Assembly (NCBI GenBank): GCA_026388345.1
Contig: JAPLJY010000049.1
Location: 1-17,922, forward strand
Direction of reading: 5' to 3'
Source: Deltaproteobacteria bacterium
GTDB lineage: Bacteria; Desulfobacterota; Syntrophia; Syntrophales; UBA5619
Length of the DNA: 17,922 nucleotides
Below the pieces are notes generated by a model that ran no database searches, had not been told where the DNA came from, and worked only from the letters and a program-made list of their open reading frames with translations. Numbering within the stretch: position 1 is the stretch's first letter; every line of letters starts with the position of its first letter. Made by a program: the position numbers and the translations under genes. Shown one piece after another: positions 3,464 to 8,604 of the stretch.

Positions 3464-4219
3464 TCATTCACCTTGCCGGAATCCGAACAGCGCGGACTGG
3501 GCGATCCGGTCGAAAACAGCGCCCTGCTCCAGGGTGTAGAAGTTGCCGTCCGGGCTTTCATGGCCGGCGCGGTAGCTCCTGGCATGTTCTTCTGAACAGA
3601 AGAACTGGGATTTGCGTCAGAAGGCGTTGATGATGCTCGGCTCGGGGAGCGTCGCGAAGTCCACGAAGGGATGGAAGAGCATCGGCTCCGGGCCTCCTTC
3701 CAGGACTTGGTACCCGAGTTCACTGTCCATCTCAAAGACCAGAGGAGCGCCGCAATGGGCGCAGGATGATTCAACCGTAACGAAAAGGGGTTCCCCCCGT
3801 AAGCGCCCTTGCACGAAGGGCGTCGCGATCGCGTCGATCGCTCAGGCGGCGTACAGGCTCTCGCCGGCGGCGAAGCGGATCCGGTGCGGCGTGGGATCGA
3901 CCGTCACCGGATAGGCCCAGGCGACGGCCCCCTGTTCGTTCCGAAACAGGAACGTCATGTGTTTTTCCAGTTCGTCCAGGATGACCTTTACCTGCGCAAC
4001 GGTCAGGTTCAATGACCCGGCGATGAATTCCGGCGCGAGCGGCAACCCGACCCGGGGAAGCTCCCGGACGACGAAATTGCGTACCCGGTGATGCTCATCC
4101 GTCATGAAGGCAAGGCCGGCCGCTACATGCCCGGGGACGGCGGCCAGCCCTTCTTCCCAATCCTTCCGGGAAATTTCCGTAATCCGGTCACCATGTGCCA
4201 TGAGGATCGTTTCGTTCAT
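3464..4219 (-). CDS. merB-like: MerB-like organomercurial lyase homologue with two in-frame UGA (putative selenocysteine) codons
   Basis: The start is the ATG at 4219, with AAAGGAG (4228-4234) 8 nt upstream; an in-frame GTG three codons earlier is less likely. The frame meets UGA at 3842-3844 (residue 126) and 3617-3619 (residue 201), and ends at TGA 3464-3466: 251 residues. Protein similarity continues through both UGAs. SLYAA-U-AIDAIATPFVQGR matches MerB LYAWCALDTLIFPALIGR, so U126 falls on catalytic Cys96 and Asp129 on Asp99. SSCAHCGAP (Cys153, Cys156) matches the Cys117 region. NAF-U-RKSQFF matches SFCCHVHFF, so U201 falls on Cys159. The C-terminal tail also fits the family. Residues of about 45-95 look like the N-terminal winged-helix region of MerB. 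MerB cleaves carbon-mercury bonds by protonolysis; whether this homologue does so is inference. It follows the hydrolase gene by 25 nt. A pseudogene is the alternative, but two random stops landing on exactly these two codons is unlikely. Confidence 0.85.
3586..3605 (-). promoter_or_regulatory. Candidate SECIS element after the second in-frame UGA
   Basis: Eleven nucleotides after UGA 3617-3619 the mRNA forms a perfect 8-bp stem, GTTCTTCT paired with AGAAGAAC, closed by a GUUC tetraloop. The loop GU lies 20-21 nt after the UGA. Stem length, loop GU and distance all match the known form of bacterial SECIS hairpins. This is the cleaner of the two elements. Confidence 0.7.
3804..3841 (-). promoter_or_regulatory. 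Candidate SECIS element after the first in-frame UGA
   Basis: Directly after UGA 3842-3844 the mRNA can form a 7-bp hairpin (GCGATCG-ACG-CGATCGC, 3841-3825). Just beyond it is a second 7-bp perfect hairpin (CGCCCTT, loop CGTGC, AAGGGCG; 3822-3804). The second has a GU in its apical loop about 28 nt after the UGA, within the usual range for bacterial SECIS elements, whose loop GU contacts SelB. Both structures sit inside coding sequence, as bacterial SECIS elements do. The two hairpins are adjacent and do not exclude each other. Confidence 0.6.
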
Positions 4220-4244
4220 AAAAACCACTCCTTTCTCGTGTTAT

Positions 4245-5958: not shown

Positions 5959-6849
5959 TCAGTAGCGCCCGATGATGGCGGCCACATCCTTCACGATCCT
6001 GAAGGCCCGTTCCAGATCGAATTCCCGGAAATCCTTTTCGCGCAGTACTGTTTTCAATTCCGTATCAAGCTGTTGTCGAAGCGAAGCCATCCGTTCCGGA
6101 GATATGTCAACCGGTTCGTTGCCCGGTACGGAAAGTTTTTGCCTGACCAGTTTAGTCATGGCTGTTTCCAGCGGAAGAAAAGCCTGTTTTCACACGGCAT
6201 AATCGATATCGTAGAAATCCCGTATCGCGGCCTCGCGTCTCGACAAGGCCGCCCGCAGTTTTTCGGCCATCGCCTCGCTCCGGGAAATGCATGGCACCGG
6301 TATGGCCGGCGTTATCGGTTTTCCCGACACGGGATTGAGGAGGATCGTCTGGGCCTTGCCGATCCATACTTGCGTCAGGAGCGGCTCGCGCAATCCCGCC
6401 TCGATCTTGACAGTCTCCTCTTGTTGGTTGATTAGCGATGTATAACCAACGACCGCGACATATTGGGTCGAGTTGTTTGCGCCCGTAAGCGGCTTGACTA
6501 TCCGGAAAGCGCTCAGTCTGCCCGGAAGCTGAGAGATGGCCCTTTTGAGCCCTGCCGACAGGCCTCGGCGTTCGGATCGGGAGGCGGAAAGGGGCGTCGG
6601 GATGACGAAGTCCAGATCCTCGCTCAGACGGTAGAACCCGGCATGGACCTTTGCCAGGCACGTTCCGCCCTTGAACACGAGTGAACCGTCCGATGCCGAC
6701 AGATAGCCCAGCAGCAGGGTGCAGAAGTAATCTTTTTCGATCAGGCGGGGGAGAAACAGGGTTTCCGCCGCCGTAAAGTGAATCGCCTCTCGAAACCGGG
6801 CGGGATCTTCGTGAACTCGCGGAAAGGATGACGGTTCAGGTCTGGTCAT
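5959..6849 (-). pseudogene. abiEii: AbiEii-family nucleotidyltransferase toxin interrupted by in-frame UGA
   Basis: The first part (6849-6190) gives 219 residues with the AbiEii/AbiGii nucleotidyltransferase signature: LVFKGGTCLAKV (58-69), then LSEDLDF with metal-binding Asp78/Asp80, and IRDFYDIDYAV near the end. A UGA at 6190-6192 then stops it. The same frame continues through KQAFLPLETAMTKLVRQKL and on to a stop at 5959, giving a tail (PVDISPERMASLRQQLDTEL) that resembles the normal AbiEii C-terminus. The full protein would be about 296 residues. Family members usually continue with a basic residue here, so a CGA-to-UGA change is the simplest cause. No cysteine is expected there, unlike in the MerB-like gene. 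The start overlaps the antitoxin end by 14 nt. The 219-residue product keeps the catalytic motifs and might retain some activity. Confidence 0.75.
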
Positions 6850-7636
6850 TCAGCACAACCCCCCAGCGGCGGTTGATCTTTCCCCGTTTCGGTTTTGTGG
6901 GTATCCACGGGATCAGACCCGTGGACGGGTCCAAAACTTTTTCAAGTTTCCGCAACAGACCCGCCTCCACACCCTGCATCTCCAGCAACGCCCCGATCCG
7001 CCGGATCGTTCCCTTGTCGCCGTAGCGCAAGGCGACGGCCACCAACTCCGCAGCGCCGACACGTCTCGCGGCCAGTTCTCCCCGGATCCAATCATAGGCG
7101 CGGGGCAGGCTGTTGAACCGGGACCAGTCATACACCGCATCCACCAGCGTCCGCACCCGCGATCCATAGACGGCTGTCTGGTCCTCCACTGTTTGCATCT
7201 CCTCCGTGTCGCCAAGCCGTTCGTCCGCCACCTTGATCAATGTCAGGGCGACCGCCCCGATGGTCCGCTCTCCGGAAATCCGGTTGTTGTAGGCATAAAC
7301 CCGGTTGGGAATCTGGTCGTCAAAGCCATAGCGGTTGAAGGCGTTCGGTCCACAGATCTGGTAACGTCCCTTCCTGTCTCGGATTAGCGTGTTTAAAGCA
7401 AGGGTTTCATCCGGACTCCAGGAACCGCCGAGAGGCAGTCGCTCCGGCACAAGATAGAAACCGGGGCGAACCCGTGCGATCAACCCCCCGCGCGCCATCC
7501 GGCGGAACAGTTCCCGCTCCTGCTCGCGGCTCAGTTGCAGCGGGCCGGTCAGCTCGCCGGTTTTGACCGTCTGACACTTGCGCATCTGCAGGTAGGCCAA
7601 CATCTGCATCTCCTGTTTTCCCAGCTTCATTTTCAT
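6836..7636 (-). CDS. abiEi: AbiEi-family antitoxin/transcriptional regulator (type IV toxin-antitoxin)
   Basis: A 266-residue protein with an N-terminal winged helix-turn-helix (about 5-60, with TGPLQLSREQERELFRRM and GLIARVRPGFYLVPERL), followed by the conserved AbiEi body (WSPDETLALNTLI, ICGPNAFNRYGF, VRTLVDAVYDWSRF). AbiEi antitoxins bind their own promoter and counteract the AbiEii nucleotidyltransferase. The next gene on the same strand is that toxin, overlapping by 14 nt, which supports the pairing. No Shine-Dalgarno sequence is visible. The ATG lies only 6 nt below a -10 box, so translation is probably leaderless; an ATG two codons inside is a possible alternative start. Such pairs act in phage abortive infection and plasmid or island maintenance. 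Confidence 0.88.
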   Translation of the reverse strand: MKMKLGKQEMQMLAYLQMRKCQTVKTGELTGPLQLSREQERELFRRMARGGLIARVRPGFYLVPERLPLGGSWSPDETLALNTLIRDRKGRYQICGPNAFNRYGFDDQIPNRVYAYNNRISGERTIGAVALTLIKVADERLGDTEEMQTVEDQTAVYGSRVRTLVDAVYDWSRFNSLPRAYDWIRGELAARRVGAAELVAVALRYGDKGTIRRIGALLEMQGVEAGLLRKLEKVLDPSTGLIPWIPTKPKRGKINRRWGVVLNDQT

Positions 7637-8232: not shown

Positions 8233-8604
8233 TCACCAAGTTTGAGTGGCTGATTCGATTGTAACGGCCAAGGTGGCACGTAGCCAACTGAACTTCTCTT
8301 TCATGAAATCAAAATCAGGGCCGGACGTCACGAAGCTCGCCTTTCCCTTGATCAAGAAACCGGCACCCGCTCCATGCAGCCCCTCAACCTTACTGCTCCC
8401 CAATGTAATCAAAACATCCGGATTGTGGGTTATGTTGGCCTCTGTCTTGTGCATGTAACCTGCGGGGATAAAAAGCCTTTCATCTTGCGATATTCTGAGG
8501 TAGCTATTCCAAGTATTGACCATGTGGGGCCCATCAGGTCCCAGGGTGGCGATCGCAACAACTCCGTCCTTCTTCATGATTTCCTTCAGTTTATCCGGGA
8601 TCAT
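8233..8604 (-). CDS. FMN-binding protein, pyridoxamine 5'-phosphate oxidase-like (Desulfovibrio FMN-bp type)
   Basis: A 123-residue split-barrel flavoprotein very close in size and sequence pattern to the 122-residue FMN-binding protein of Desulfovibrio vulgaris. Shared stretches are DGVVAIATLGPDGPHMVNTWNSYL (13-36), MHKTEANI (51-58), VLITLGSSKVEG (64-75), GAGFLIKGKASF (80-91) and a TIESATQTW end. The NTWNSY and HKTEAN segments line the FMN phosphate and ring in this family. The physiological role is probably low-potential electron transfer or redox sensing, but it is not settled for the family. AGGAGG lies 8 nt before the ATG. It is a single-gene unit with its own -10 box. Confidence 0.92.
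   Translation of the reverse strand: MIPDKLKEIMKKDGVVAIATLGPDGPHMVNTWNSYLRISQDERLFIPAGYMHKTEANITHNPDVLITLGSSKVEGLHGAGAGFLIKGKASFVTSGPDFDFMKEKFSWLRATLAVTIESATQTW

Follow-up and report, generated by a model that had tools for sequence, protein, structure and literature searches.

Is a gene with two in-frame UGA codons, each at the place of a catalytic cysteine of the organomercurial lyase MerB, translated as a protein with two selenocysteine (Sec) residues, and on what would such a protein act? The question is raised by a locus in 17,922 nucleotides of DNA from a Deltaproteobacteria bacterium (contig JAPLJY010000049.1, assembly GCA_026388345.1; this whole stretch is the window referred to below), for which an earlier interpretation made from the letters only (the sequence-only reading) had proposed a Sec-Asp-Sec active site. 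Our analysis indicates that the gene is very likely translated as a double-Sec protein with UGA at both catalytic columns. We further predict, with a probability of about two in three, that the product is a MerB-fold Sec-Asp-Sec protein that splits the carbon-metal bond of an organomercury compound or a similar organometal. The features of the gene are listed here, with MerB residues numbered as in PMC8261052.

3464..4219, reverse strand: predicted MerB-like selenoprotein gene with a 251-residue product when UGA is decoded as Sec; stop codon TGA at 3464-3466
4228..4233, reverse strand: Shine-Dalgarno-like AAGGAG upstream of the ATG at 4219, assigned by sequence
3842..3844, reverse strand: UGA codon 126 (putative Sec126), aligned to MerB Cys96; TGA in 33 of the 33 loci covering it
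3833..3835, reverse strand: codon of Asp129, aligned to MerB Asp99 and kept in 33 of 33 loci
3805..3821, reverse strand: bacterial hairpin after UGA 126 that resembles a selenocysteine insertion sequence (SECIS), GCCCUU-CGUGC-AAGGGC; from codon freezing and pairing
3761..3763, reverse strand: codon of Cys153, aligned to MerB Cys117 and kept in 34 of 34 loci
3752..3754, reverse strand: codon of Cys156, kept in 28 of 34 loci; joins Cys153 in a CxxC motif
3617..3619, reverse strand: UGA codon 201 (putative Sec201), aligned to MerB Cys159; TGA in 34 of 34 loci
3587..3604, reverse strand: bacterial-SECIS-like hairpin after UGA 201, UUCUUCU-GUUC-AGAAGAA in the window; from codon freezing and pairing

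Translation with TGA as U agreed with the earlier claim of a single frame from the ATG at 4219 to the TGA at 3464, in which inner TGA occurs only at codons 126 and 201. The product scored 57.5 bits against the Pfam MerB model (PF03243, cut-off 27) in a match that runs through both TGA codons, and conservation in the relatives likewise continues beyond them, as had been claimed. Alignment of a 33-row family profile with MerB (3f2g and 1s6l) placed codon 126 on Cys96, Asp129 on Asp99, Cys153 on Cys117 and codon 201 on Cys159, which bears out the view that the UGAs fall on both catalytic cysteines while the Asp is kept. The window protein therefore has Asp at the Asp99 column, and UGA where MerB has Cys96 and Cys159; Sec is a chemical analogue of Cys at both columns. 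Its predicted fold matches mercury-bound MerB, with 18-21% identity over the structural alignments. The likeness to MerB thus comprises the Pfam domain, the Asp99 and Cys117 columns and the predicted fold, whereas the window protein differs in its UGA codons, in Arg at the Cys160 position, in an extra CxxC and in the absence of mer genes from the seven neighbours scanned in the window. UGA is an ordinary stop in the window DNA, since 8 of its 10 other long frames end in TGA and all 10 contain TGG; the absence of inner TGA from these ten follows from the way in which the frames were listed.

A scan of genome contigs recovered eight relative loci with 47-56% identity in the best segment, from sources that include Candidatus Aquidulcis, Anaerolineae (two), Deltaproteobacteria, Acidobacteriota, Thermoflexales and Nitrospirae, and all eight had TGA at both places. 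Profile searches covered 395, 400, 396 and 295 genomes from the phyla of four of these relatives and matched 22, 16, 13 and 9 genomes, in the same order, at E 0.001. A cut at 140 bits or more kept 15, 4, 8 and 2 genomes, the eight including the genome of a partial locus, L070; below the line lay a shorter piece with one TGA (L071, 90 bits) and distant MerB-like matches. After removal of five second copies of already counted loci, the final set comprised 34 loci including the window. Every locus that covers column 126 or column 201 has TGA there. Any other TGA in the family stands only at the gene end, where the stop codon is TGA, TAA or TAG, and the residue before Sec201 is Phe or Tyr. The two-UGA pattern lies far beyond chance.

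Annotated proteins carry traces of the same two codons. A protein collection gave 241 matches, 120 of which were listed and form the basis of the counts that follow. Fifty stop at the residue just ahead of column 126 and 24 at the one just ahead of column 201 (with 21 Cys, 2 Trp and 1 Arg at 126); 42 have Trp at both columns, and one has Trp at 126 and ends elsewhere. The remaining three, P0015, P0056 and P0061, are not cut short and show Gly/Leu, Ser/Ser and Ser/Cys in place of the two Sec residues; catalysis has possibly been lost in them. Termination at column 200 most plausibly reflects a UGA taken for a stop, and the Trp/Trp proteins a UGA translated by a code-4 gene caller. UGA is thus aligned with Cys at both columns, since 126 is Cys in the 21 listed homologues and in MerB, and 201 corresponds to MerB Cys159. 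In a quick-method tree of 75 rows, among them 18 of the 21 proteins with Cys126 and 17 of the 42 with Trp at both columns, the Cys126 form required at least seven changes on starred branches, with 31 of 72 inner branches open; Sec and Cys therefore seem to have been exchanged repeatedly at this column. Column 201 seems to stay UGA, and Sec201 appears to be the more strictly kept of the two. The Cys126 form was also sought for a comparison of hairpin loss and was not found in 41 genomes of one class. The outcomes named beforehand as able to refute the Sec reading were looked for in the relatives, and none overturned it: all covering loci have UGA, and Cys occurs at 126 among the listed homologues.

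Both hairpins were defined from the window alone, before the DNA comparison, when the proteins of eight relatives had already been translated. In most relatives the second reads UUCUUCU-GGUC-AGAAGAA, with GGUC in place of the window's GUUC loop. Codon entropy relative to the genes' own codon use averaged 0.12 in the 10 hairpin columns versus 0.89 in the 62 other conserved columns (Mann-Whitney p 2.5e-7), and this freezing of codons is a stronger argument for the hairpins than covariation. The helices are paired in 99.5% of cells for hairpin 126 and 99.1% for hairpin 201. In hairpin 126, one locus (L067) replaces C-G by U-A on both sides, which was matched by 10 of 500 shuffles. In hairpin 201, a compensatory change from U-A to C-G occurs in five sequences, two of them sisters, and none of 500 shuffles gave five such cells; it turns the usual Trp208 into Arg and changes the Ser209 codon silently from TCA to TCG. 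The hairpin spacing and the G early in the loop fit a bacterial SECIS, and the GGUC loop is reminiscent of that of fdhF.

The machinery for Sec insertion is present in most of the relatives' genomes. SelB was over its cut-off in 7 of the first 8, while in the eighth a partial match covered 101 positions. Among further genomes, it reached the cut-off in 22 of 23 with the gene versus 18 of 26 without it (p 0.032). The total is 29 of 31 genomes with the gene, a set that excludes the genome of L070. A tRNA-Sec with anticodon tca was found in 7 of the 8 relatives' genomes and not in 8, the match over the Rfam cut-off in G004 being a tRNA-Cys. In genome G1003 (L092:5743-12245, C19) the double-Sec gene is followed at a distance of about 0.55 kb by selA, a selD with a fused carboxymuconolactone decarboxylase-like (CMD-like) domain and selB, and all four genes share the same strand. 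Because this genome has a second selB elsewhere, the locus may be a self-contained selenium cassette. Relatives, hairpins, Sec machinery and the Cys/UGA exchange at 126 all support the active site proposed in the sequence-only reading.

One MerB-like selenoprotein has been described. SaoL, of the SAO system, is a one-Sec protein with a CU motif and appears in a 2026 catalogue of 119 selenoprotein families and subfamilies; it is entered there as an organometallic lyase of unspecified metal and is the only MerB-like entry that we met (PMC13188914). Judged from the CU motif and from the one-UGA loci L041 and L045, and not from SaoL's own sequence, its Sec would sit on the Cys159 column. The window family, in contrast, has Phe or Tyr before Sec201 and Sec at the Cys96 column as well, and no ABC transporter was found among the seven scanned window neighbours. 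Two UGA per frame also occur in other selenoproteins, for example a UxxU metal-binding protein (NF041115; PMC13188914). There the two Sec share one short motif, whereas in the present family 75 residues separate them, each UGA has its own hairpin, and the two Sec would come together only in the fold. The belief that no two-Sec MerB had been described holds as far as we found none in the literature, where work on SAO and on new selenoprotein neighbourhoods (PMC9879109, PMC12013261) could mention one. It needs narrowing in that the one-Sec form is already catalogued, and the novelty is the second Sec in a MerB-fold selenoprotein. As a separate observation, four distant MerB-like frames (L041, L044, L045 and L046) have a single TGA, located at the Cys159 column, and keep Cys where MerB has Cys96; two of them, L041 and L045, carry a CU motif like that catalogued for SaoL.

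How might a Sec-Asp-Sec protein work? The kept Asp and the predicted MerB fold argue for protonolysis of a carbon-metal bond, and we infer a C-Hg or similar substrate by analogy with the known MerB mechanism. SelB would bind each hairpin and deliver Sec-tRNA at both UGAs. R-Hg would be captured by the selenolates of Sec126 and Sec201, the departing carbon would receive its proton from Asp129, and selenium would retain Hg(II) until thiols, sulfide or the Cys153-x-x-Cys156 pair removed it. These routes of removal are proposed because just 1 of the 31 host genomes has MerA over its cut-off. Mercury is bound more tightly by selenium than by sulfur, and selenols are ionised at neutral pH; an enzyme of this kind would therefore be suited to methylmercury at trace levels where conditions are anoxic and rich in sulfide. 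The hosts are probably anaerobes.

Several observations weigh against this assignment. The covariation evidence is thin, because most hairpin pairs never vary (7 of 13 are invariant and uninformative, and three cells are unpaired). Total folding energy alone is not convincing: compared with synonymous shuffles, 48-base windows gave a mean z of -0.89 after UGA 126, the lowest of 44 positions, and an unremarkable -0.08 after UGA 201. One genome, G120, gave no SelB at E 1e-40. The window protein falls below the cut-offs of the NCBIfam MerB equivalog models NF009710 and NF033555 (56.4 bits against 193 and 45.2 against 200) and of the SaoL model NF040728 (49.7 against 140). No conserved operon with mercury genes was found across the loci, which mostly extend about 1.5 kb to each side and of which 20 neighbours were scanned with Pfam. 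A MerR-family gene adjoins the double-Sec gene in 6 of 33 loci (L003, L007, L027, L035, L037 and L079, with a broken frame in L079); these regulators are of one kind (SRSTLLYYDSIGL) with a conserved Cys, and the five unbroken ones are without MerR's three mercury cysteines. MerA passed its cut-off in 1 of the 31 genomes that have the gene and in none of the 26 that do not; its scarcity is thus general in these groups, and the count tells little either way. HgcA reached its cut-off in only 11 of the 31 genomes, versus 1 of the 26. In one phylum sample, after 80 genomes were added, the contrast shrank to 8 of 15 with the gene versus 22 of 90 without (p 0.031). This association is weak, because the genomes without the gene were the first of each sample and so not drawn at random, and by eye the genomes with it are larger, with no correction made for either bias. 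Neighbours, MerA and HgcA do not name the substrate. Finally, very tight Hg-Se binding could slow product release.

The explanation that competes best with organomercury cleavage, unlikely as we consider it, keeps the double-Sec MerB-fold protein and lets it act on another organometal or organometalloid, on a small electrophile, or in Sec-Sec redox chemistry. It would agree with MerA below cut-off in 30 of 31 genomes, with the varied neighbours and lack of a recurring mer gene among those scanned, with the unspecified metal of the one-Sec SaoL in the catalogue (PMC13188914), and with the Tat-type signal of 26 of the 120 listed homologues, a feature that MerB is not known to have. Against it stand the invariant MerB triad including the Asp, which simple redox chemistry would not need, the kept Cys117 column, the predicted match to the fold of mercury-bound MerB and the modest enrichment of HgcA in hosts. 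Considerably less probable is a scavenger or carrier of mercury or another metal, whose selenols would hold Hg(II) or R-Hg tightly with little turnover. The chemistry of Hg-Se bonds would favour such a role, as would MerB variants with Ser at 99, which are reported to bind a wider metal range (PMC8261052), but Asp129, present in 33 of 33 loci, would be unneeded for binding alone. A pseudogene with two nonsense mutations, or a sequencing error, would account for two in-frame stops and nothing more, and was rejected because the same two TGA recur in 33 of 33 loci across four phylum samples and eight record titles, with no TAA or TAG at either column and with conservation beyond both. Reassignment of UGA to Trp or Gly in the hosts, to which the Trp written at both columns of 42 of the 120 listed proteins could point, was likewise rejected, given that inner TGA is restricted to two columns, that TGA is the stop of 8 of the 10 other long window genes, that Cys replaces UGA at 126 in 21 listed homologues and occupies both MerB columns, and that SelB and tRNA-Sec are present in relatives.

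Should cleavage of organomercury by a Sec-Asp-Sec protein prove true, nature would have put selenium in place of both catalytic sulfurs of a well-studied enzyme. This would offer a clean test of selenium's role in metal-carbon bond cleavage, and a concrete gene by which methylmercury could be degraded under anoxic conditions. In a survey of mer genes, MerB was screened by Cys96, Asp99, Cys117 and Cys159, and HgcAB is reported in none of the MerB-only genomes (PMC8261052). A Cys-based screen of this kind would miss the double-Sec family, while 11 of 31 host genomes have HgcA over cut-off. Organisms that degrade methylmercury in anoxic sediments may have been undercounted. More speculatively, and with the balance of our judgement somewhat against it, widespread Sec-Asp-Sec organomercury lyases might be the missing demethylase of anaerobes, including methylators that would both make and break methylmercury within a single cell, without a need for MerA, and might have been overlooked since gene callers cut at the first UGA. 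The combination of hgcAB and merB is itself not new, because PMC9948709 reports three genomes with both hgcAB and an ordinary merB, and Geobacter bemidjiensis as a strain that carries out both methylation and demethylation.

Further observations concern the family and its hosts. Twenty-six of the 120 listed homologues (P0074 to P0120) have a twin-arginine RRTFLK-type signal before the family N-terminus, found by pattern; the members of one branch would thus be exported in the folded state. One genome, G1127, has two copies of the double-Sec gene (L066 and L076). In four related loci (L029-L032) the neighbour of the double-Sec gene is a MarR-family gene, as identified in L029. At G1003:C102:948-1898 lies an HgcA match with a single inner TGA, which fits the Sec form of HgcA that is catalogued in PMC13188914. 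Viral contigs gave no relative. Plasmids gave 14 matches, and the ten of these that were listed are 27-29% identical, eight annotated as merB or merBA and two unannotated.

Scans of the window with Rfam and for tRNAs gave no match and no tRNA. A PPOX frame at 8233-8604 was not taken further, as stops are met soon after its TGA. At 6190-7636 on the reverse strand the window carries an AbiEii-like nucleotidyltransferase and, upstream of it, a weak AbiEi-like partner, a pair that resembles a type IV toxin-antitoxin system.
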